Assembly: GCF_008362905.1 (NCBI RefSeq)
Contig: NZ_VFJB01000005.1
Span: 248,001 to 312,000 of the forward strand
Length of the DNA: 64,000 bases
Reading direction: 5' to 3'
DNA from: Deferribacter autotrophicus
GTDB lineage: Bacteria; Chrysiogenota; Deferribacteres; Deferribacterales; Deferribacteraceae
The notes below the pieces were generated by a model. That model was given only the letters and a program-made list of their open reading frames with translations. It was not told the origin of the DNA and ran no database searches. Shown here in pieces: positions 11,468 to 53,562 of the stretch. Each line of letters starts with the position of its first letter. Positions within the stretch are counted from its first letter, which is position 1. A program made the translations under genes and the position numbers.

Positions 11468-12316
11468 ATGAGAAAAATTTTTCTTAATTTTGTAATATTT
11501 ATTTTTTTGTTTATTCCATTGATTTCTAATGCAGAGCTAAATTTCGGGATAGCCTCAATGATTTCTCCTGATGAAACATATTTTTTGTACAAAGATTTTG
11601 GCAATTATATTGCGAAAAAGCTCGGAATAAAAATAAATGCTATTTTTAGAAGAAATTATGCTGATATGAATAGACTTATTGAAACTGGCCAAGTTGATTT
11701 TGCATCTATTTGTACCGGAGCTTTGATTTATCTAAATAATAAAAAATACGAAATTGCTGCTGTTCCAGTAGTAAACGGTAAAAGTACATATAAATCATAC
11801 ATTATTGTAAATAAAAATTATGGGATAAATAATATTGATGAATTACGGGGCAAGGTTTTTGCGTTTACTGATAGATTGTCAAATAGTGGTTATATTTATC
11901 CCACATATTTGATTTTAAAAAAAGAGAAAGTAAAACCAGAACAGTTTTTTTCTCGTATTTATTTTACAAACAGTCATGATAAATCAATTTATCTTGTCAA
12001 CGAAGGTGTTGTGGATGGTGCTGCTGTGGATAGCCTTGTTTTTGAATATGTGTCACATTCACAACCAGAAAAAGTTAAAAATATCAAGATAGTACATGAA
12101 TCTGATGAGTTTTTATCTCCACCTTTTGTTGTTTCAACATATCTTGATAAAAATATCAAACAAAGACTAAAAAGAGTTTTACTTAATATGCATAAAAATG
12201 AAGAAGGTGCTAAAATACTAAAAAAATTAAAAATAGATAAATTTGTTGAACCTGATTATAAACTTTTGAAAAAAGTTTTAACTATGCGGAAGTTTTTAAA
12301 TACGTTTAATAATTAG
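11468..12316 (+). CDS. PhnD-like periplasmic substrate-binding protein
   Basis: A 282-residue secreted protein with a signal peptide (about 1-22, cleavage after SNA) and a PhnD/phosphonate-type binding fold (LNFGIASMISPDET, GQVDFASICTGALIYL, VVDGAAVDSLVFEY). No permease or ATPase gene is near. A histidine kinase and an NtrC-type regulator follow instead, so it is probably a ligand sensor rather than a transporter part. Such proteins serve AioXSR and ArrXSR arsenic systems, and TtrS carries a related domain. Its only mature-chain cysteine, Cys82, sits in the expected ligand-site segment. The ligand is unknown. Confidence 0.82.
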   Translation: MRKIFLNFVIFIFLFIPLISNAELNFGIASMISPDETYFLYKDFGNYIAKKLGIKINAIFRRNYADMNRLIETGQVDFASICTGALIYLNNKKYEIAAVPVVNGKSTYKSYIIVNKNYGINNIDELRGKVFAFTDRLSNSGYIYPTYLILKKEKVKPEQFFSRIYFTNSHDKSIYLVNEGVVDGAAVDSLVFEYVSHSQPEKVKNIKIVHESDEFLSPPFVVSTYLDKNIKQRLKRVLLNMHKNEEGAKILKKLKIDKFVEPDYKLLKKVLTMRKFLNTFNN

Positions 12317-12474: not shown

Positions 12475-13854
12475 ATGATACGAAAATTATTCCGTTTTTT
12501 ACCACCAAGGTTAAAACATAGAGTTAGTTTACTAATTGGCTTTTTAGGTGCAGGTACTGTAATTGTAAATTTAATAGTCCTTTTTGTTTATTTAAACAGC
12601 TTTTTGAAAAATAATATTGAACACATTATCGATTCTAACTTTAAAATCAATGAGTATAACTTAACTGAAGCAATACTTTATGATGATGTTTATACTATTT
12701 TTGAGACTTTAAAAAAAATAACAGAGAATTCTCCATACATAAGTGATATTTACCTTTTTGATAAAAACAAAAGATATGTTTTGGATTCAAAGGTTAAAAG
12801 AGATGCAAAGACACTTCAGGATTTTGATAAGGTAAATTTTAAAAGGGTAAAAACAATAAAGATAAAAGACGAGCCTATTGGATATTTGGTATTTTTAATA
12901 GATCAAATGTTTATAATTAATGAAATTAAGAATAATCTTTTAAATTTAGCAATGATTAATTTTGCGATTATTTTCTTTGGGGTTATGTTAGGGCTTTATC
13001 TAACAAAAATTTTGATTAGACCTATGAACAGTTTTATAAATCAGATAAATGAACTAGATTATGATAAATTGCCTTTTAAAACCTCTGTGCCAGAATATGC
13101 TTCATACGAGATTAAAAAATTATCAGATACATTAAACAATATGTCAGAAAGATTGGCCGCAGCTTTGAATAAACTTTATGAAGAGGAAAGAAAGGTTAGA
13201 AAAAATGAAAAGCTTGCGTCAATAGGAATGATGGCTGCAGGTCTTGCTCATGAACTAAAAAACCCTATTATGACGATAAATCTTATTGTTTATCAGCTGA
13301 AAAAATGTTCTGCCGCAAACAATAGTTGTTCTGAAGATTTAAAAGTTATTCAAAATGAAGCAAATAGGCTTGTGAAAAGAATAAATGAATTTTTGGAGTA
13401 TTCAAAACCTGTAGATGTTAGAAAAGCAGATGTAGAAGTAGAAAGTATAAATTATGAATTGAGACAATATGTAATGAAAAGATTTGATAATGTTTCTTTA
13501 AAGATTATTTATGATTTAAAGAAAATTTATACTGACAAAGAGAAGTTGCTTCAGGTGTTACTAAATCTTATAAATAACTCAATTGAAGCTAAGGCAAACG
13601 AAATAATAATGAAAGTTACAAGAGATAATAGTGATATAATTATTGAATTTGAGGATAATGGTGAAGGTATTTCTCTAGAAAGTGAAGATAAAATATTTAT
13701 GCCATTTTATACAACTAAGTCATCAGGGACTGGTCTTGGATTAGCTATTTGTGATATGATTATTACTGCAATGGATGGGGAGTTAGTTTTTGAAAGGGGG
13801 AGGGAAAATGGTGCAAAATTTATAATAAGATTGAGGGATGCGTATGTCTGCTAG
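12475..13854 (+). CDS. Sensor histidine kinase
   Basis: A 459-residue inner-membrane kinase. Membrane segments at about 17-40 and 157-180 flank a periplasmic domain of about 115 residues. A HAMP-like segment (about 181-235), a dimerisation domain with His259 in GLAHELKNPI, and an ATPase domain with NLINNSIEA, DNGEG and GTGLGLAI follow. It overlaps the response-regulator gene, so the two form a pair. The binding-protein gene upstream suggests that the periplasmic domain reads a ligand-loaded partner. A stop codon just upstream in frame fixes the N-terminus near this ATG. Confidence 0.93.
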   Translation: MIRKLFRFLPPRLKHRVSLLIGFLGAGTVIVNLIVLFVYLNSFLKNNIEHIIDSNFKINEYNLTEAILYDDVYTIFETLKKITENSPYISDIYLFDKNKRYVLDSKVKRDAKTLQDFDKVNFKRVKTIKIKDEPIGYLVFLIDQMFIINEIKNNLLNLAMINFAIIFFGVMLGLYLTKILIRPMNSFINQINELDYDKLPFKTSVPEYASYEIKKLSDTLNNMSERLAAALNKLYEEERKVRKNEKLASIGMMAAGLAHELKNPIMTINLIVYQLKKCSAANNSCSEDLKVIQNEANRLVKRINEFLEYSKPVDVRKADVEVESINYELRQYVMKRFDNVSLKIIYDLKKIYTDKEKLLQVLLNLINNSIEAKANEIIMKVTRDNSDIIIEFEDNGEGISLESEDKIFMPFYTTKSSGTGLGLAICDMIITAMDGELVFERGRENGAKFIIRLRDAYVC

Positions 13855-15229
13855 AGTTCTTATTGTGGATGATGATAATGCGCTGTGTTATAGTTTGAAA
13901 AGAGTCTTAGGTGATCATTTTGATGTATATACTGCATTGAATATGGATGAAGCATTAAATCATCTAAAAAGTATCAAGTTTGATATTATGTTTCTTGATT
14001 ACAAGCTTGGAGAAATAAATGGCTTGGATGTGTTGGAGGAGGCTAAAAAGATAGATGCTAATCTCCCTGTGGTGGTTATGACAGCTTATGGAACTAGTAA
14101 TTTAATTCTTGATAGTATTAAAATGGGAGCTATTGAATATCTTGTTAAACCTGTTGCCCCAGATGAGTTGATTAAAATTATAAATAAATTGAAAAGAACT
14201 GACTTGGGAGAATCTTGTCCTGAAAATAGTTATAAAATAGATGATTATGAATATCATGAAAATATTTTTATAGGTTCTTCTCCAGTTATGAAAGATGTTA
14301 TGGTCTTGGTAGCAAATGTGGCAAGGACTGATTATCCGGTATTAATTACAGGTGAGAGTGGAACAGGTAAGGAGCTTATTGCAAAAATAATTCATCAGTA
14401 TAGTAAACGAAGTGAATCTGTTTTTATTCCAATTAACTGTGCAGCCATCCCTGAAGAGCTACTGGAGAGTGAGCTTTTTGGTTATGAAAAAGGTGCATTT
14501 ACAGGTGCAGAAAAAGGAAAACTTGGGAAGTTTGAGTTAGCACATAATGGCACAATATTTCTTGATGAAATTGGAGATATGTCTATAGATTTGCAGGCAA
14601 AACTTTTAAGAGTTTTACAGGACGGTACAATTGAAAAACTTGGTTGCAGTAAGTTCCATTATGTAAATGTCCGAATTATTGCTGCTACAAATAAGAACTT
14701 AAAATCAATGATTAGAGAAGGGAAATTTAGAGAGGATTTGTTTTACAGGTTAAATGTGGTGAATATCCATTTGCCTCCATTGAGAGAGCGCAAAGACGAT
14801 ATAAAGGAGCTTGCAATTTATTTTGCAAAAAAATATTCAAAGGAATTAAATAAAAGAATATGCTGCATAGAAAATGAAGTTTTTGAAATATTAAAGGAAT
14901 ATAATTGGCCAGGAAATGTAAGAGAACTAGAAAATGTGATTAGAAAAGCAGTTTTGATTACAAGGGATAATCTAATAAAAGTGGAAGATATTAAGATTGA
15001 TGGTGAAATTGAAAAAAAAGATGTTCAAGATATTACAGAGTATTTTACAAGTAAATATAAATACAATCTTCTGGAAAAGAGTGTTGAAGAAGTGGAAGAA
15101 AAATTGATTAGAAAGGCACTAAAAATGACAAATTATCATTTGAGTAATACAGCAGAATTACTTGGTATAAGCAGAGTTACTCTTAATGCAAAACTCAAAA
15201 AATATGGAATAAAATCTGCTAATAGTTGA
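13844..15229 (+). CDS. NtrC-family sigma-54 response regulator
   Basis: A 461-residue activator of sigma-54 promoters. Domains in order are a receiver with phospho-acceptor Asp52 in MFLDYKLG, an AAA+ domain with GESGTGKE (170-177) and the sigma-54 contact loop GAFTGA (217-222), and a Fis-type helix-turn-helix at the end (AELLGISRVTLNAKLKKYG). ATG 13844 is preferred over ATG 13838 because GAGGG lies six bases before it. It overlaps the kinase gene by 11 bases. A sigma-54 promoter lies 2.4 kb downstream before the molybdopterin reductase pair and is a likely target; rpoN is also in this window. Confidence 0.95.
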   Translation: MSARVLIVDDDNALCYSLKRVLGDHFDVYTALNMDEALNHLKSIKFDIMFLDYKLGEINGLDVLEEAKKIDANLPVVVMTAYGTSNLILDSIKMGAIEYLVKPVAPDELIKIINKLKRTDLGESCPENSYKIDDYEYHENIFIGSSPVMKDVMVLVANVARTDYPVLITGESGTGKELIAKIIHQYSKRSESVFIPINCAAIPEELLESELFGYEKGAFTGAEKGKLGKFELAHNGTIFLDEIGDMSIDLQAKLLRVLQDGTIEKLGCSKFHYVNVRIIAATNKNLKSMIREGKFREDLFYRLNVVNIHLPPLRERKDDIKELAIYFAKKYSKELNKRICCIENEVFEILKEYNWPGNVRELENVIRKAVLITRDNLIKVEDIKIDGEIEKKDVQDITEYFTSKYKYNLLEKSVEEVEEKLIRKALKMTNYHLSNTAELLGISRVTLNAKLKKYGIKSANS

Positions 15230-15295: not shown

Positions 15296-16342
15296 TTATA
15301 AATTTTGGAAGTAACGTTTTTGAAAATATAAAGCCACATTTACAAGTCCAATCATAACAGGCACTTCTACAAGAGGTCCTATTACGGCAGCAAAGGCAGC
15401 TCCTGAGTTTATTCCAAAGACAGCCACAGAAACAGCTATGGCAAGCTCAAAATTGTTACTTGCAGATGTAAAGGCAAGGGTTGTGGTTTTGCTATAATCA
15501 GCACCTATCTTTTTCCCTATATAGAATGAGACAAAGAACATTATTACAAAATATAAAAGTAATGGAATTGCTATTCTTATCACATCCATTGGTAGCTGCA
15601 CAATTAATTTCCCTTTGAGGCTAAACATTACCACAATTGTAAAAAGCAGAGAAATAAGAGTTAGAGGGCTGATTTTTGGTATTACAACCTGATGATACTT
15701 TTCTCTACCCATAATTTTTACACCTATAAATCTTGTGATCATTCCAGCGATGAATGGTATACCAAGATAGATAAAAACACTTTTGGCAATCTGCGATATA
15801 GTTATATTTACTACTGCTCCATGCAACCCGAAATATTTGGGAAGAATGGTTATAAAAATCCATGCATAAACAGAGTAAAAAAGCACCTGAAAGATTGAGT
15901 TGAAAGCAACAAGTCCAGCTGCGTACTCTGTATCTCCTTTCGCAAGCTCATTCCATACAATTACCATAGCTATACATCTTGCAAGGCCAATCATTATCAG
16001 TCCAACCATATATTCAGGGTAATTCCTAAGGAAAGTAATAGCTATAAAAAACATTAAAATCGGACCAATAACCCAGTTTTGTAATAGAGAGATAAAGAGG
16101 ATTTTTAAATTTCTAAAAACATCTGGCAATTCTTCATATCTAACTTTTGCAAAGGGTGGGTACATCATAAGAATCAATCCAATAGCAATCGGGATATTGG
16201 TTGTACCAATCTGAAATTTGTTTATTATATTTACAACAGATGGGACATAATAACCAACCCCTACACCAAAAATCATTGCAATGAAAATCCATAATGTTAA
16301 ATAGCGGTCAATAAAAGATAGTTTCTTTGATACCAGTTCCAT
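15296..16342 (-). CDS. acr3: Arsenite efflux permease, ACR3 family
   Basis: A 348-residue inner-membrane protein with about ten hydrophobic segments that exports arsenite by exchange with protons. The ACR3 signature is seen in [14 protein letters not shown], with Cys123 and Glu132 as the residues important in known family members. The length is normal. It has a GGAG ribosome site and is the last gene of the arsR-arsC-acr3 operon, 12 bases after arsC. It supplies the export step after cytoplasmic arsenate reduction. Confidence 0.95.
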
Positions 16343-16354
16343 AAAGCTTTTCTC

Positions 16355-16771
16355 CTATATCAATTTACTCAGTTCGTTTTTAATATAATTTTTTATTTCA
16401 TCTCTAACTTTTCTAAAAACTTGAAGAATTTCATCTTCACTTCCTGTTGCCTTTGCAGGATCTTCAAATCCTCTGTGAATGATCTTTGCTTTTGCAAGAT
16501 AAGCTGGGCATGTTTCATTGGCATGGCCACAAACTGTAACCACCACATCAAAATCAATGTCACTAAGGTCATTTAGAGTCTTTGAGTAGTGATTGCTTAC
16601 ATCCACACCATCTTCTTCCATAACTTTTATCATGTAATGATTGAGTCCATGTTTTTCGATGCCTGCCGAATAAACATCGAATCTATCACCAAGGTATAAC
16701 CTCCCGTATCCTTCTGCCATCTGACTCCTACATGAATTTCCTGTGCACAAAAAAAGAAGCTTTTTTTTCAT
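16355..16771 (-). CDS. arsC: Arsenate reductase, thioredoxin-coupled
   Basis: A 138-residue enzyme with a low-molecular-weight phosphatase fold that reduces arsenate to arsenite for export. All catalytic residues of the Staphylococcus-type family are present: the P-loop CTGNSCRS with Cys9, and the redox pair Cys81 and Cys88 in VCGHANETCP. It has a GAGGTG ribosome site and overlaps the end of the upstream arsR fusion gene by four bases. This is a detoxification enzyme, distinct from a respiratory arsenate reductase. Confidence 0.96.
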   Translation of the reverse strand: MKKKLLFLCTGNSCRSQMAEGYGRLYLGDRFDVYSAGIEKHGLNHYMIKVMEEDGVDVSNHYSKTLNDLSDIDFDVVVTVCGHANETCPAYLAKAKIIHRGFEDPAKATGSEDEILQVFRKVRDEIKNYIKNELSKLI

Positions 16772-17466
16772 AAATACACCTCACATTTTTCAATCAGTTT
16801 TTTTCTCATATCTTTTGGTTTGAGATTTTTTATATCATTCAAATTGATAGTTTCGATTTTACCAAATTTAATATTTAAATTTTCAATATTATCAAAGTCG
16901 TTTAAAATTAAGACAAGATCAAAGTAATATTTTTTAAAGTTGCTAATATTTTTTGTGAAAAATCTTAATTCTGCATACTCTTTCGGATATAATTTCTTTA
17001 TTAAAGGATTTACCTCTGGAGCAGGTGCAATTCCTGCACTTACACAGGTTATGTTATCTTTTTTTGATAATTCGATTTCAATAATTTGACTATATAAAGA
17101 ATTGTCATAATCTACCACTAAAATCTTTTTTGCAGGTATGCAGCTATTTTTATTTGATGAAAGTTTTTTTAAATCTGTAAGTGCAGTTTCACTTTTTAAA
17201 AAGTTATTTAGCACTTCATTGAGGATAATTTTTTTTGATTTTTCTAGATGTTCATTTATTCTGTAATATGTCCATTTACCATCTTTCATATCAACTAAAA
17301 TATTTGCTTGTTTCAATTTAGAGAGGTGTGTGGACAAAGTTGATTGTTTTAATTCTAAAACATTTTCAAGATCACACACACATAATTGACCTTGATAATT
17401 AATCAGATTTAAAATCCTTAATTTATTTTTGTCAGAAATTGCTTTCAAAAATTTTTCCATAGACAT
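16768..17466 (-). CDS. arsR: ArsR repressor fused to a degenerate ArsC-like domain
   Basis: A 232-residue protein, about twice the length of ArsR. Residues 1-95 are an ArsR winged helix with LCVCDL (Cys29, Cys31) for arsenite binding and the recognition segment QSTLSTHLSKLK. Residues 112-232 align by eye with the neighbouring ArsC: KKILVVDYDNSLYSQ against the P-loop, VSAGIAPAPEVNPLIKKL, and YFDLVLILNDFDN. The catalytic Cys and Arg of the P-loop and the redox cysteines are gone, so the domain should be inactive. It heads the ars operon, and its start lies seven bases after a -10 box with no ribosome site. Confidence 0.88.
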   Translation of the reverse strand: MSMEKFLKAISDKNKLRILNLINYQGQLCVCDLENVLELKQSTLSTHLSKLKQANILVDMKDGKWTYYRINEHLEKSKKIILNEVLNNFLKSETALTDLKKLSSNKNSCIPAKKILVVDYDNSLYSQIIEIELSKKDNITCVSAGIAPAPEVNPLIKKLYPKEYAELRFFTKNISNFKKYYFDLVLILNDFDNIENLNIKFGKIETINLNDIKNLKPKDMRKKLIEKCEVYL

Positions 17467-17473
17467 GGCGGCA

Positions 17474-17501
17474 AATATATCTATGTATCACGATATGTCA
17501 A
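17474..17501 (-). promoter_or_regulatory. arsR operon promoter with dyad in the spacer
   Basis: On the minus strand, TTGACA (17496-17501) and TATATT (17474-17479) are 16 bases apart. The dyad tatc-N2-gata (17486-17495) sits in the spacer next to the -35 box and is a candidate ArsR operator. The -10 box ends seven bases before the ATG, so the mRNA would be almost leaderless. Confidence 0.6.
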
Positions 17502-17522
17502 TACGTAATCGATAGAGTTCAA

Positions 17523-17562
17523 ATGTAAAGAAATTGAACGTATTTGTTAAGAAACTTTACAT
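17523..17562 (+). promoter_or_regulatory. Candidate upstream activator site
   Basis: Perfect 8-bp inverted repeat atgtaaag (17523-17530) and ctttacat (17555-17562), separated by 24 bases. It lies about 50-90 bases upstream of the sigma-54 promoter, where NtrC-type activators often bind. The dyad is seen directly; its role is inferred. Confidence 0.4.
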
Positions 17563-17611
17563 AATGATTTTAATTACCTTTCATAATAAAGGATTTTTAT
17601 TCGCAATATTT

Positions 17612-17626
17612 TGGCATGAAATATGC
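17612..17626 (+). promoter_or_regulatory. Sigma-54 promoter of the molybdopterin reductase operon
   Basis: TGGCATGAAATATGC matches the -24/-12 consensus TGGCAC-N5-TTGC with the invariant GG and GC at the correct spacing and two mismatches elsewhere. The -12 element ends 36 bases before the ATG of the iron-sulfur subunit, and AGGAGG precedes that start. Confidence 0.8.
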
Positions 17627-17662
17627 TTATTCTTAAAGTGATTAATTTCAGGAGGTCAAATT

Positions 17663-18403
17663 ATGAGCGAATCTATAATTTTGCGTATGCAAAAGGACTT
17701 GGAAAGAGCGCTTTTAAAACCAGCTAACAAAAGAAAGTGGGTTATGCTGGTGGATATTAGAAAGTGTACTGGATGCCATTCGTGCTCTGTGGCGTGCAAA
17801 GCTGAAAACAAAACACCAGAAGGTGTAAACTATCGTTGGGTGAAAGAAGCTGAAGATGGAGAATTCCCAAATGTTATGAGAATATTTATGCCTGGACTTT
17901 GTATGCAGTGTGATAATGCCCCATGTATTAAAGCTTGTCCATCTGGTGCGATTTACAAACGAGAAGATGGCATCGTTGCCATTGATTATTCAAAATGTCA
18001 AAGCTGTGGTGGTGCAGCAGTTGATGCTTGTCCATATTCAGCTATATCAGTTGATAAGGGTAATTATTATACTGAAGGCACTCCAGAAATTATGGATTAT
18101 GAAAAAGGACCAATCTTTGAATATGGTCATAAATATGAGAGGGTTGGTGAGAATTTACCAATAGGTAGCTGTAGAAAATGTCATTATTGTCTTCATAGAC
18201 TTGAGATGGGTATGCTTCCTACATGTGTGACAACATGTCTTGGTGGTGCAAATTATTTCGGTGATATTAATGATCCTGAAAGTCTTGTATATCAAAAAGC
18301 AAAAGAGTTGAATGTTTATACGTTCCTTGCGGGTGAAGGTACGAAACCTACTACAAAATATGTAGCTGATGATATAGAGCTTTGTAAAAAATGTCATGAA
18401 TAA
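17663..18403 (+). CDS. Four-cluster iron-sulfur subunit of a molybdopterin reductase
   Basis: A 246-residue ferredoxin-like electron-transfer subunit of the PsrB/TtrB/ArrB type, passing electrons to the catalytic subunit. Cysteine groups are at 35/38/41/45, 80/83/88/92, 112/115/(118 is Ala)/123 and 170/173/176/188/192. In the third group the usual third cysteine is replaced by alanine, and the last is shifted by one residue. The C-terminal CLHRLEMGMLPTCVTTCLGGA is typical of TtrB- and PsrB-like subunits. It has no signal peptide of its own and probably rides with the TAT-exported partner. No membrane-anchor gene follows. Confidence 0.87.
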   Translation: MSESIILRMQKDLERALLKPANKRKWVMLVDIRKCTGCHSCSVACKAENKTPEGVNYRWVKEAEDGEFPNVMRIFMPGLCMQCDNAPCIKACPSGAIYKREDGIVAIDYSKCQSCGGAAVDACPYSAISVDKGNYYTEGTPEIMDYEKGPIFEYGHKYERVGENLPIGSCRKCHYCLHRLEMGMLPTCVTTCLGGANYFGDINDPESLVYQKAKELNVYTFLAGEGTKPTTKYVADDIELCKKCHE

Positions 18404-18436: not shown

Positions 18437-21400
18437 ATGAGTAAAAAATCTATTGTGGATAAAATAGAGGTTAATAGAAGAGGCTTTTTAAAATCGTCTG
18501 CCTTTTTAGGTGGTTCTGTTATGCTTATGTCACAGCTTGGCTGTGTTCAGAAAAAGTTGGATGAGATGTCAAAGAAAGGTGAACTTTCAAAATATGTGTT
18601 AGCAAAACCAGAGCATGTAATTTATTCTGTTTGTTTGCAGTGTCACACAGCATGTAATATTAAATGTAAGGTTTATGATGGTGTATTACATAAAATAGAT
18701 GGTAATCCATATTCTGCTCAAAATATGTATGAAAATTTACCTTACAATACTCCAGTGGATGTAGCTGCAAGAATTGATGGTAAAATATGTCCTAAGGGAC
18801 AAGCAGGTGTGCAAACATTGTATGATCCATATAGAATTGTGAAGGTTTTAAAAAGAGCTGGTAAGAGAGGTGAAAATAAGTGGAAAGCTATTCCTTTTGA
18901 GCAAGCTGTAAAAGAAATTGTTGAAGGTGGATACCTTTTTAAAGATGTGCCAGGTGAAGAGAACAGAAAGGTTGAAGGTTTAAAAGATATCTTCAAAGTG
19001 CGTGATCCAAAACTTATGAAGCAGATGGCAAAAGATGCTAAAGCTCTTGCAGAAAAGAAAATGAGCTGGTCAGAGTTTAAGTCAAAGTACGCAGGTAAAA
19101 TGGATTTATTTGCAAATCCTGACCATCCTGATGCAGGGCCTTACAACAACAAATTTGTTTTTATGGCAGGTCGTATTGAGCATGGCCGTAAAGAATTTAT
19201 GAAGAGATTTATGAAAGATTGTTTTGGTTCAGTAAACTTCTATGAGCATACCACAATTTGTGAACAATCTCACCATATTGGTTTTGCTGAAATGTTTAAT
19301 GGTAAACATCATTTAAAACCAGATTTGATGGAATGTAAATTTGTTATTTATTTTGGTACAGGTGGTTTTGAAGCTAATTTTGGTCCACCACCTATATCTG
19401 AAAAGCTTACTGCAGGTTATACTGAAAAAAATATGAAAATTGCAGTGGTTGATCCACGTATGTCCAAGACTGCTGCAAAAGCTGATTATTGGGTGCCAAT
19501 AAGACCAGGGACTGATGCAGCATTTGCTCTTGCAATGGGTAGATACATTATTGAGACCGGGAGATATGATAAGAAATATCTATCAGCGGCAAATTACAAA
19601 GCAGCTTATTCGATAAATGAGACAACCTTTACAAATTCAACATGGCTTGTGAAAATCGAAAAAGATGGGCCAGGTGCGTTCCTTAAACCATCAGAAATTG
19701 GTTTATCTGGTGATTTTGTTGTTATGAAGGATGGCAAGCCTGTTGCTGGTAAGAAGAAAGGGGATGCTGTCTTTGGAGATCTTTTTGTAGATACAGTGAT
19801 AAACGGTATAAAGGTAAAATCAGCGTTCCAGATTTATTATGATTCTACAAAGTCAAGAACTCTTAAAGAGTGGGCTGATTTATGTGATGTTCCAGTTGAG
19901 CAAATAATTACATTAGCAAGAGAATTTACATCTTATGGTAAAAAAGCAGCTATAGATTTTTATCGTGGTCCAGTTCAACATACAAATGGGTATTACAATG
20001 CAACAGCAATAATAGCTCTTAACTTACTTATAGGAAATGTTGATTGGGCTGGTGGTCTTTCTGTAGGTGGTGGACATTGGCATGAATATGGTGGCAAAAA
20101 AGGTAATCCTTTTAATATGAAAAAACTTGTTAAAAATAAACTTGGGACATTTGGATATCCTGTAACTCGTGAAAAAACAAAATATGAAAAGACAACATTT
20201 TTCAATGGATATCCAGCGAAGAGACCATTTTACCCATTTACCGGGAATGTTTATCAAGAGATTATACCTTCAGCATATGAAGGTTATCCTTATGATGTAA
20301 AATGTCTTATGATACATAAAGGTACACCTGCGTTTGCTTCTCCAGCTGGTCATGTGTTTATAGAAATGCTTAAAGATGTTAATAGGATACCTCTATTAAT
20401 TGGTAGTGATATTGTTATTGGTGAAACAACTATGTATTGTGATTACATTTTTCCAGATAAAGCTATATGGGAAAGATGGGGATTTTCACATCCAACACCT
20501 GACAACACAGTGAAAGTTTCCAAAATCAGACAACCTGTTGTAAATCCTATGACTGATAAAACTAAGGTATATGGTCAGGAAGTCCATCTTGGTATGGAAA
20601 CATTGATGTATGCAATTGCTGAGCAGTTGAATTTACCTGGTTTTGGTAAAGATGGATTCGGTCCTGGTTTAGATAATTACAGAGAGGAAGATTTTTATCT
20701 GAAACTTGCTGAAAATATCGCAATGGAAGGAGCACCTGTTCCAGATGCTGATGCAAAAGAGATTGATGTTTTCTTCAACGCTAGAAAACATTTAACAAAA
20801 GCTGCTTTTGATGTGGCTAAAGTGAAAGAGAGTCCAAACTGGAAGAAAATTGTTTATGTATTGAACAGAGGTGGAAGATTTGAGCATACAAGTAGAGCGC
20901 ATAAGGGTGATAAACTGGCTTATCAGTACAAAAAAGATATAAGTCTTTATGTGGAGAGTGTTGCACAAACAAGAGATTCTATGACAGGTAAAAGATTTTA
21001 TGGTTATCCAGTTTATGTACCTGCTGCTGATATGTTTGATAGACCTTTGAAACAGGATGGCTATGATTTACATTTGATAAGTTATAAAGAGATAACAGGG
21101 GGACAGTCCAGGACTTCTAGTAACTACTGGATGCTAGACTTGTATCTTGATGAAAACTTTATATGGATGAATAGTAAAGATGCCGATAGACTTGGTTTGA
21201 GTGATGGAGATACAGCAAAAATTGTTTCACCAACTAACCCTGATGGTGTATGGGATTTGAAAAATGGTATGAAAATTAAGATGATTGGTAAAGTAAAAGT
21301 GAGTGAAGCGATCAAGCCAGGAACTGTTGCAGTTAGCTGGCACTATGGACATTGGGCATATGGCTCACACGATGTTGTAGTAGATGGAAAGGTAATTAAA

Positions 21401-21541
21401 GGGGATAAAAGAAGAGCGACTGGACTTTGTCCAAATGCTGCAATGCTTGTTGATCCTGTACTGAAAAACATGTGTCTCACAGACAAAATTGGTGGTAGTG
21501 CCTCCTTTTATGATACACATGTAAAAGTAGTTAAGGCATAA
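18437..21541 (+). CDS. TAT-exported molybdopterin reductase, catalytic subunit (TtrA/SreA/ArrA-like)
   Basis: A 1034-residue member of the DMSO reductase family. A twin-arginine signal (RRGFLK, 14-19) leads to the periplasm, with Cys36 after LG as a weak lipobox. The N-terminal cluster motif is CLQCHTACNIKC (Cys66, 69, 73), completed by Cys118 in GKICPKGQ. Cys275 in FYEHTTICEQSHH is the likely molybdenum ligand. Length and the VEGLKDI region recall tetrathionate and sulfur reductase subunits (TtrA, SreA, SrdA). The arsenic genes and possible metalloid sensor alongside argue for arsenate or another metalloid. The substrate is therefore open. A GGAGG site precedes the start. Confidence 0.85.
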   Translation: MSKKSIVDKIEVNRRGFLKSSAFLGGSVMLMSQLGCVQKKLDEMSKKGELSKYVLAKPEHVIYSVCLQCHTACNIKCKVYDGVLHKIDGNPYSAQNMYENLPYNTPVDVAARIDGKICPKGQAGVQTLYDPYRIVKVLKRAGKRGENKWKAIPFEQAVKEIVEGGYLFKDVPGEENRKVEGLKDIFKVRDPKLMKQMAKDAKALAEKKMSWSEFKSKYAGKMDLFANPDHPDAGPYNNKFVFMAGRIEHGRKEFMKRFMKDCFGSVNFYEHTTICEQSHHIGFAEMFNGKHHLKPDLMECKFVIYFGTGGFEANFGPPPISEKLTAGYTEKNMKIAVVDPRMSKTAAKADYWVPIRPGTDAAFALAMGRYIIETGRYDKKYLSAANYKAAYSINETTFTNSTWLVKIEKDGPGAFLKPSEIGLSGDFVVMKDGKPVAGKKKGDAVFGDLFVDTVINGIKVKSAFQIYYDSTKSRTLKEWADLCDVPVEQIITLAREFTSYGKKAAIDFYRGPVQHTNGYYNATAIIALNLLIGNVDWAGGLSVGGGHWHEYGGKKGNPFNMKKLVKNKLGTFGYPVTREKTKYEKTTFFNGYPAKRPFYPFTGNVYQEIIPSAYEGYPYDVKCLMIHKGTPAFASPAGHVFIEMLKDVNRIPLLIGSDIVIGETTMYCDYIFPDKAIWERWGFSHPTPDNTVKVSKIRQPVVNPMTDKTKVYGQEVHLGMETLMYAIAEQLNLPGFGKDGFGPGLDNYREEDFYLKLAENIAMEGAPVPDADAKEIDVFFNARKHLTKAAFDVAKVKESPNWKKIVYVLNRGGRFEHTSRAHKGDKLAYQYKKDISLYVESVAQTRDSMTGKRFYGYPVYVPAADMFDRPLKQDGYDLHLISYKEITGGQSRTSSNYWMLDLYLDENFIWMNSKDADRLGLSDGDTAKIVSPTNPDGVWDLKNGMKIKMIGKVKVSEAIKPGTVAVSWHYGHWAYGSHDVVVDGKVIKGDKRRATGLCPNAAMLVDPVLKNMCLTDKIGGSASFYDTHVKVVKA

Positions 21542-21544
21542 TTT

Positions 21545-21571
21545 GAGGGGAGTGATCTCCCCTCTTTTTTT
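21545..21571 (+). terminator. Terminator after the reductase operon
   Basis: Perfect 8-bp stem gaggggag/ctcccctc (21545-21552, 21557-21564) with a four-base loop, followed by seven T. The next gene starts 11 bases further on, so readthrough or a separate promoter is needed to express it. Confidence 0.9.
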
Positions 21572-29570: not shown

Positions 29571-29804
29571 TGGCGTCACCCCATTTTTTGTGGAATAATA
29601 ATAATTTTATGTATTTTATTGTTAAATTACATAGTAAACACAAAGGAAAAACATTTTTCTCATTCTCGTGGCACGTCCAGTGCCACTGCGAGGCAGGTTT
29701 CTCAAAAATCGTCATCCATGGCGATTTTTTGGAAACCTGAACCCGAAAAATGTTTTTCCTTTGTATTCTTAAAGCGTTAATTTGCAAATTATGGGGTGAC
29801 GCCA
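29571..29804. mobile_element. 234-bp MITE-like palindromic element
   Basis: Perfect 14-bp terminal inverted repeats (29571-29584 and 29791-29804, beginning tggcgtcacc) are flanked by an 8-bp direct repeat actcatta (29562-29569 and 29806-29813). Inside is a perfect 20-bp inverted repeat (29640-29659 with 29745-29764) enclosing two further hairpins: gtggcac/gtgccac (29668-29686) and aggtttc/gaaacct with aaaaatcg/cgattttt (29695-29738). There is no coding frame of note. It is best explained as a non-autonomous element inserted between carA and mltG; the matching transposase is not in this window. Confidence 0.82.
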
Positions 29805-29823
29805 GACTCATTAAACAGTTGTA

Positions 29824-52173: not shown

Positions 52174-53562
52174 ATGAGTAAATTAAGTGTTACATTAAAG
52201 AACAAACTGTCTCAAAAACTCCTTATTACTCCACAAATGAAGCAGTCTTTAAATATTCTTCAGCTTCCGATGTTTGAGTTATCACAAGAGATTAATAGTA
52301 TTTTGGAAGAAAATCCAGTTTTAGATGAAATTGAAAAAAAGGAAGATTTGGCAGAGGATGATGTTAACGTTGACTCTTATATTGAAGAATTAAAGAAAGT
52401 GGATTGGGAATCATATTTTGATGAAGATGATGAGTTTAAATATTATATTAAAGAAGATGAAGATGTTAATTTTGAAAAATTTGTGAGTAAAAAACCTAAT
52501 CTATATGAGCATCTACTTTTCCAATTAAACATTTCTGGTTTAAAAGGTGATGATTACAGAATAGGGGAATATATAATAGGGAATTTAACAGAGAATGGTT
52601 ATTTTAGATTGGATATTGATACATCAGCCAAAGAATTGGGGGTTTCAAAAGAACACTTCTTACAAGTTTTGAAAAAGATTCAGGGGTTTGATCCTTCTGG
52701 TATTGCTAGTAGAAACTTAAAGGAATGTTTAAATATTCAGTTGAAAGATTTTGAAGTAAGCGATGAAGATTTGAGTTATATTAATGTTATTCTCGATAAG
52801 TATGAAGCTGAGCTGATAAATGGGGATTATGAACGTATATATAAAGGTTTGGGTATTGATAAAGATTATTTTGATTATTTGATGGGGTTAATTAAAAAAG
52901 TTGATCCAAAGCCTGGATTAAAGTTCAATTATGAGACGGTTTATGTAATTCCTGATGTATATGTTTTTAAAAAAGATGATGTTCTGGAAGTTAAATTGAA
53001 CGAAGAATATATCCCTTCAATTAAGTTAAATAGTTACTATATTAAATTAATTAAAAGTGAAGGACTTGATGAGAAGACGAAAGAATATGTTGAAGAAAAA
53101 GTAAAAAATGCTTTATGGATATTGAAGAGTCTAAATCAGAGAAAAAAGGCAATTTTAAGAGTGGTGGAAACCATTGTAAAACATCAAAGACATTTTTTCC
53201 TATATGGTGATAGGAAATTAAAGCCTCTTAAATTAAAAGATGTATCAGCCGAGACTAATCTTCATGAGTCTACAATTAGCAGAGTTACATCAAATAAATA
53301 TTTAGCATGTGAATACGGTGTGTATGAGATTAAAAGTTTTTTTGTAAAAGGGATTGAAACTACTGATGGTACAATGAGTGTTGAAGCTATTAAAGATCTA
53401 ATTAAAGAAATAATAGATAATGAAGATAAAAAGAAGCCTTATAGTGATGAAAAAATTGTGGAAATTTTATCAAAAAAAGGTATAAAAATTGCAAGGAGGA
53501 CTGTTGCAAAATATAGAGATGAATTAGGAATACCATCTACAAGTAAAAGAAAACAAAGATAG
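52174..53562 (+). CDS. rpoN: RNA polymerase sigma-54 factor
   Basis: A 462-residue alternative sigma factor that needs AAA+ activators. Region I is Gln/Leu-rich (KLSQKLLITPQMKQSLNILQLPMFEL), followed by an acidic stretch (about 45-90), the core-binding and helix-turn-helix segments, and the RpoN box ARRTVAKYR (440-448). It serves the NtrC-type activator at 13.8 kb and the sigma-54 promoter at 17.6 kb. The order lptB-rpoN-hpf-ptsN is classical. Confidence 0.97.
   Translation: MSKLSVTLKNKLSQKLLITPQMKQSLNILQLPMFELSQEINSILEENPVLDEIEKKEDLAEDDVNVDSYIEELKKVDWESYFDEDDEFKYYIKEDEDVNFEKFVSKKPNLYEHLLFQLNISGLKGDDYRIGEYIIGNLTENGYFRLDIDTSAKELGVSKEHFLQVLKKIQGFDPSGIASRNLKECLNIQLKDFEVSDEDLSYINVILDKYEAELINGDYERIYKGLGIDKDYFDYLMGLIKKVDPKPGLKFNYETVYVIPDVYVFKKDDVLEVKLNEEYIPSIKLNSYYIKLIKSEGLDEKTKEYVEEKVKNALWILKSLNQRKKAILRVVETIVKHQRHFFLYGDRKLKPLKLKDVSAETNLHESTISRVTSNKYLACEYGVYEIKSFFVKGIETTDGTMSVEAIKDLIKEIIDNEDKKKPYSDEKIVEILSKKGIKIARRTVAKYRDELGIPSTSKRKQR

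Follow-up and report, generated by a model that had tools for sequence, protein, structure and literature searches.

Circuits in which a periplasmic sensor, a histidine kinase and an NtrC-type regulator control a sigma-54-dependent promoter are already known from the aio and arx systems. One example is AioXSR of Rhizobium NT-26 and Agrobacterium GW4, in which a periplasmic arsenic sensor, a kinase and an NtrC-type regulator act together with an RpoN-dependent aioBA promoter. This promoter, TGGCAC-N5-TTGC, precedes a molybdoenzyme operon (PMC6011840), and the DNA site used in the aio system is GTT-N10-AAC (PMC5335332). A related system is ArrXSR/arrAB of Chrysiogenes arsenatis, where the sensor set serves an arsenate reductase; its ArrR is reported to be CitB-like and to lack an AAA+ domain, no RpoN promoter was found there, and arrXSR was reported to be absent from Deferribacteres (PMC5908839). 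On the side of the enzymes, the group formed by TtrA, SrdA and the alternative (archaeal) arsenate reductases takes in tetrathionate as well as selenate reductases (PMC7331816, PMC10100899).

Here we analyze a stretch of 64,000 nucleotides from the deep-sea bacterium Deferribacter autotrophicus (the window), in which a locus combines elements of these systems. Similar to AioXSR, it encodes a putative periplasmic arsenic sensor, a kinase and an NtrC-type regulator near a molybdoenzyme operon, but the aio enzyme is an arsenite oxidase whose sensor binds arsenite, whereas the enzyme of the window is a reductase of another family, and the DNA site of the window is a tandem TGTAAAG-N3-CTTTACA. With ArrXSR of Chrysiogenes arsenatis it shares a sensor that is closest to ArrX and that apparently serves an arsenate-type reductase; in contrast to the reported absence of arrXSR from Deferribacteres, an ArrX-type sensor set is present in Deferribacter, and it comes with an NtrC-type regulator.

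A Predicted Sigma-54 Promoter Precedes the Reductase Operon

The operon starts with the gene for an iron-sulfur subunit (TtrB/ArrB-like; 17663-18403, + strand), and upstream of it the + strand carries a -24/-12 element, TGGCATG-N4-ATGCT, at 17612-17627. An earlier note on this DNA had described a site with GG and GC at exact -24/-12 spacing, 36 bases before the start codon, and the letters confirm this: 17612-17626 reads TGGCATGaaatATGC (TGGCATGAAATATGCT when extended to 17627), with GG at 17613-17614 and GC at 17625-17626 separated by exactly 10 bases, the dinucleotide arrangement of sigma-54 promoters, and with the ATG at 17663 starting 36 bases past the match. A ribosome-binding site, AGGAGG, lies upstream of this ATG (17650-17655, + strand), and the transcription start is predicted at about 17637-17639. 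The gene for sigma-54 itself, rpoN, is indeed encoded in the same window (52174-53562, + strand); its product has the three sigma-54 domains complete, and no second copy was found in the genome.

That such a match might arise by chance in AT-rich DNA is suggested by the many hits of loose searches (368 with three mismatches to the consensus, an uninformative number), but several lines of evidence make this explanation highly improbable. The site scores 16.3 bits with a sigma-54 matrix that was set up from the published consensus and whose absolute scores are approximate. Two sites in the 64 kb outscore it, the first inside the reductase gene and the second at 29669, in a palindromic intergenic hairpin, and 17612-17626 is the only strong match in the window that adjoins a start codon. 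Ten 64-kb trials of a first-order Markov simulation gave a single match as good in total, and the chance expectation of such a match in the 196-base intergenic strand is about 0.00014. Genome-wide, in scans based on patterns rather than a matrix, TGGCAY-N5-WTGCW occurs in 27 copies vs 4 for the reversed pattern; in most of the copies the Y is a T (TGGCAT), which appears to be the local style.

Conservation further argues against chance. The reductase operon was sought in related genomes and the flanking DNA of each locus was then compared; in most of these relatives, a -24/-12 site precedes the orthologous operon by 26-62 bases. In the Deferribacter desulfuricans locus (L045), score and distance are the same as in the window; the site is also present in L047 and L048, it has the variant form TGGCAT-N5-TTGAT in L046 and L049-L051, and it is located further upstream, ahead of an additional first gene, in L052 and L053. 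Likewise, all eight canonical arrA loci of the phylum (L057-L064) have an upstream -24/-12 site, at 15.7-18.7 bits. When 226 other gene starts in the related loci were scored alike, all stayed below 15.7 bits and a single one attained 12; these loci share ancestry, and their counts are not independent events. Outside the phylum, -24/-12 matches precede the operon in some Campylobacterota and in a few other cases, and none was found before the operon at the Chloroflexota loci; this patchiness indicates that not all members of the reductase clade are under sigma-54 control. Collectively, the conserved position across Deferribacterales and at sensor-bearing arrA operons gives strong comparative support to 17612-17627 as the predicted sigma-54 promoter of the reductase operon, as the earlier note had proposed.

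Two further observations concern sigma-54-like sequences. The -12 variant TGGCAY-N5-TTGAT, in which GA replaces GC, appears to be regularly employed by Deferribacterales: besides the reductase operons of L046 and L049-L053, it is found at sites across six genomes (G000, G006, G009, G012, G025 and G027). At sigma-54 spacing, it has 53 matches in eight genomes vs 17 and 24 at spacings one base shorter and one base longer, and 12 of 20 sampled sites sit 11-67 bases ahead of a ribosome-binding site and start codon. Additionally, the top -24/-12 match of the window, at 29669-29685 (TGGCACGTCCAGTGCCA) within the intergenic gap 29580-29823, is a nearly perfect palindrome that may be a hairpin or an operator rather than a promoter; an Rfam scan of the whole window, this gap included, gave no match.

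Tandem Palindromes Support a Link Between the NtrC-Type Regulator and the Promoter

Sigma-54 promoters are served by activators bound about 80-150 bases upstream, and two tandem palindromes of the form TGTAAAG-N3-CTTTACA, 21 bases apart, are located at this distance from the predicted start. Predicted activator site 2 (TTGTTAAGAAACTTTACAT, 17544-17562, centred on 17553 at about -85) has one mismatch to the consensus in the genome scan, and predicted site 1 (ATGTAAAGAAATTGAACGT, 17523-17541, centred on 17532 at about -106) is weaker, ranking fourth in the 64 kb; neither is assigned to a strand. The tandem spacing is as in relatives, whose paired upstream palindromes are about 21-23 bases apart. 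The core and spacing of these sites are unlike those of the AioR-type site, GTT-N10-AAC (PMC5335332), which was considered and rejected as a description of them.

The palindromes were first spotted by eye, and cross-trained matrices then served as a cleaner test. A matrix trained on arrA operons alone ranked predicted site 2 first in the 64 kb and, among the eight other reductase loci having a site, ranked the upstream site first in seven and second in the eighth; conversely, training on reductase loci returned the site at rank 1 in 8 of 8 arrA loci. Palindromes (up to two mismatches) within 300 bases of a sigma-54 pattern occur, at the stringency used, only at the reductase operon in the whole genome. 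In relatives they are kept whatever the gene order, the regulator lying upstream, downstream or divergent by genome. They are absent from L048 and L056, where a regulator is present, and it is only in the regulators of these two loci that the recognition helix reads SRAT, the others having SRVT, SRMT or TRVT.

The candidate activator was named in the earlier note as an NtrC-type gene 2.4 kb upstream, which agrees with a gene on the + strand at 13838-15229. Its product has the receiver Asp (Asp54), an AAA+ domain with a GAFTGA loop and a Fis-type helix-turn-helix expected of such activators. The link between this regulator and the promoter, previously an inference, gains support from the palindromes found within 17467-17612, kept in relatives and missing where the recognition helix differs. 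Both the promoter and its connection to the activator are thus well supported by comparison of the loci, and the regulator probably acts on the reductase promoter through the tandem palindromes.

L048 merits a separate comment. This locus is from a genome with both reductases, and in its region 13500-13640 the sigma-54 site is kept and the shared activator motif is absent. The regulator of the locus has a changed recognition helix, a combination that makes this a possible case of insulation between paralogous circuits.

The Adjacent ars Genes and an Alternative Mode of Control

Between the regulator gene and the reductase operon, three genes are encoded on the - strand: acr3 for arsenite efflux (15296-16342; TIGR00832 above cut-off), arsC for a thioredoxin-type cytoplasmic arsenate reductase (16355-16771), and an arsR-type repressor gene (16768-17466). 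The last diverges from the reductase operon across the 196-base gap, an arrangement that raises the question of whether the main control is exerted by the ArsR-type repressor or by a sigma-70 promoter, with the sigma-54 site playing a minor part. A weak sigma-70-like match that overlaps the site (TTGGCA-17-TAAAGT, 9/12) would be consistent with such control. However, the good sigma-70 match in the gap (TTGACA-16-TATATT, 17474-17501, - strand, 11/12) faces arsR, and relatives without a nearby arsR still have the -24/-12 site and the palindromes, so that we regard this alternative as quite improbable.

The ArsR-type repressor is itself unusual, since at 232 amino acids it is about double the usual length, with HTH_5 in its first part only and no Pfam match in its C-terminal half. 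The -10 element of its predicted promoter is very near the start codon, and the arsR mRNA may therefore be leaderless. In the D. desulfuricans genome (G010), an RND-type efflux set consisting of an AcrB family protein and an outer-membrane protein separates the reductase operon from the ars/sensor genes (L045 6143-11639).

The Predicted Sensor Resembles ArrX

Going beyond the earlier note, the comparisons identify the predicted sensor as ArrX-like and the reductase as not ArrA. The sensor gene (11468-12316, + strand) is followed by that of a sensor histidine kinase (12475-13854, + strand) in an ArrS/AioS-like position. Against solved structures, the putative periplasmic sensor matches ArrX best (E 6.8e-44) and AioX next (2.5e-28), and it retains each of the seven AioX/ArrX-group pocket residues (Y88, C106, Y131, S161, S163, H192 and D210 in AioX numbering). 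This set of residues has been described for the AioX group, and its Cys is missing from PhnD (PMC5908839). Near the binding loop, the sequence SMISP aligns with ArrX and not with AioX, which favors arsenate as the ligand. The sensor would thus read an arsenic oxyanion, most likely arsenate.

The distribution of the sensor gene follows that of the reductases. It is present in 21 of 21 genomes of the phylum with arrA or a reductase of the window type (one of them, G006, counted on the basis of a 33% relative) vs 2 of 29 genomes with neither, and in G017, which has both reductase types, each adjoins its own sensor. A shortened ArrX-like gene with a 196-aa frame (L038, G014:C1:143954-144496) was observed in a genome that lacks both types of reductase, where it is perhaps a relic.

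A Reductase Distinct from ArrA and from TtrA Proper

The molybdopterin catalytic subunit is encoded at 18437-21541 (+ strand), starts with a Tat-type RRGFLK sequence and has an invariant Cys275 as the candidate Mo ligand. Directly after it, a strong hairpin with a T tract resembles an intrinsic terminator (21545-21571, + strand, with the terminator itself assigned to 21545-21564), and the promoter therefore probably serves two genes, with the transcript ending there. Two family assignments were rejected for the catalytic subunit. With the ArrA model it scores 138 bits vs 1044-1182 bits for the true ArrA proteins of the phylum (over 1000 bits being the full-length criterion). TtrA is the nearest curated model, at 508 bits, below its cut-off of 1750 and vs 1052 for the TtrA-like protein of L055; moreover, no gene lies between the subunits, unlike the ttrB-ttrC-ttrA order, and the protein is placed outside the TtrA-like clade. 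Its curated model score and invariant Cys are nevertheless those of the TtrA/SrdA/alternative arsenate reductase group at large, from which it differs by its clade, set apart from TtrC-neighbored TtrA-like proteins, and by an operon without a TtrC-like anchor gene. Canonical ArrAB functions as two subunits in some bacteria, and the missing anchor gene is therefore no objection to an arsenate reductase.

In a tree of 76 reductases, the window enzyme is placed in a 60-row clade that has a support of 100 and is separate from ArrA, from TtrA-like proteins accompanied by a TtrC-like gene and from a Citrobacter plasmid relative; the tree was made with FastTree, and its deep joins of long branches are unsure. 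An ArrX-like gene is nearby in 27 of 80 named loci of the clade, in Chloroflexota, Campylobacterota, Nitrospirota, Thermodesulfobacteriota and others, and nearly all of these sensors retain the pocket residues. Many relatives outside the phylum have no detected sensor, partly through short contigs. When solved structures were searched with a profile for this clade, no match was obtained at E 1e-40.

The Citrobacter relative is found on a plasmid of Citrobacter arsenatis (NZ_CP037863.1; L187 10055-15450), where a TtrA-like catalytic subunit about 37% identical to that of the window is encoded beside arsRDABC. It differs from the window enzyme in having a third gene between the subunits, no ArrX-type sensor annotated in the region and a position outside the clade; possibly, this operon encodes another alternative arsenate reductase. 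The plasmid is conjugative, and equally similar genes occur on plasmids of other Enterobacteriaceae.

These affiliations bear on the substrate, since the same circuit could instead serve another oxyanion (tetrathionate, selenate or antimonate), with the sensor reading that ion or responding to arsenic incidentally. Mixed substrates are known for the TtrA/SrdA/alternative-Arr group, TtrA is the best curated match, and the D. autotrophicus genome paper reported an annotated tetrathionate reductase of doubtful function whose TtrC is missing, presumably the gene at 18437-21541. However, the TtrA-like operons of the phylum (L054 and L055) have a third gene at the ttrC place, no ArrX-like sensor and no palindromic sites of this type, and fall outside the clade, whereas canonical arrA in sister genomes is governed by the same type of sensor and the same DNA sites. 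Together with the arsenic-pocket Cys retained in the sensor and the ars genes adjoining the operon, this makes another substrate unlikely, though it keeps an appreciable probability. An arsenate reductase is the reading we prefer. In this regard, the sister species D. desulfuricans carries the module too but lacks a canonical arrA, and it was nevertheless described as arsenate-reducing; for D. autotrophicus, no report of arsenate respiration was found in the literature searched.

Proposed Circuit

We consider it probable that the operon is induced by an ArrX-S-R/sigma-54 circuit and that its product is an arsenate reductase which is not ArrA and belongs to the TtrA/SrdA/alternative-Arr group. 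The promoter, tandem sites, gene content, conserved pocket and clade can be read from the sequence; for ligand, phosphorelay, DNA binding and substrate we infer the following course, in which ligand and substrate are assigned by association and the first three steps (sensor, kinase, regulator) are modelled on the AioXSR scheme. A periplasmic arsenic oxyanion, most likely arsenate, would bind the ArrX-like protein, which would signal to the kinase, leading to transfer of phosphate to the NtrC-type regulator. The phosphorylated regulator would then occupy both palindromes (17523-17562) and contact sigma-54 polymerase by its GAFTGA loop, with ATP hydrolysis opening the promoter for a start at about 17638. 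The two-subunit enzyme, exported by the Tat path, would reduce arsenate in the periplasm and replace the role of ArrAB in Deferribacter, and the arsenite produced would be removed by the adjacent Acr3.

Implications for Arsenate Respiration

In the literature searched, which leaves subscription journals mostly outside, no paper was found that names both tetrathionate reductase and ArrX, and none that describes arsenate-type reductases of Deferribacterota under an ArrX-type sensor combined with sigma-54 and an NtrC-type regulator. The circuit amounts to a concrete regulon, with one promoter, two activator sites and one sensor, and it suggests that an enzyme labelled tetrathionate reductase is an unrecognized arsenate-respiration enzyme. 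On balance, we are inclined to extend this view to the widespread clade annotated as tetrathionate reductase or plain oxidoreductase, which may represent a second line of bacterial enzymes for arsenate respiration, controlled by ArrX-type sensors; Deferribacterota would then use one sensor-regulator module and one DNA site for both this lineage and canonical arrA. Growth on arsenate in the absence of arrAB has been reported for several microbes (PMC9751042), which surveys based on arrA alone would overlook. If the clade does reduce arsenate, it could explain arsenate reduction by D. desulfuricans and extend arsenate respiration to members of several other phyla.
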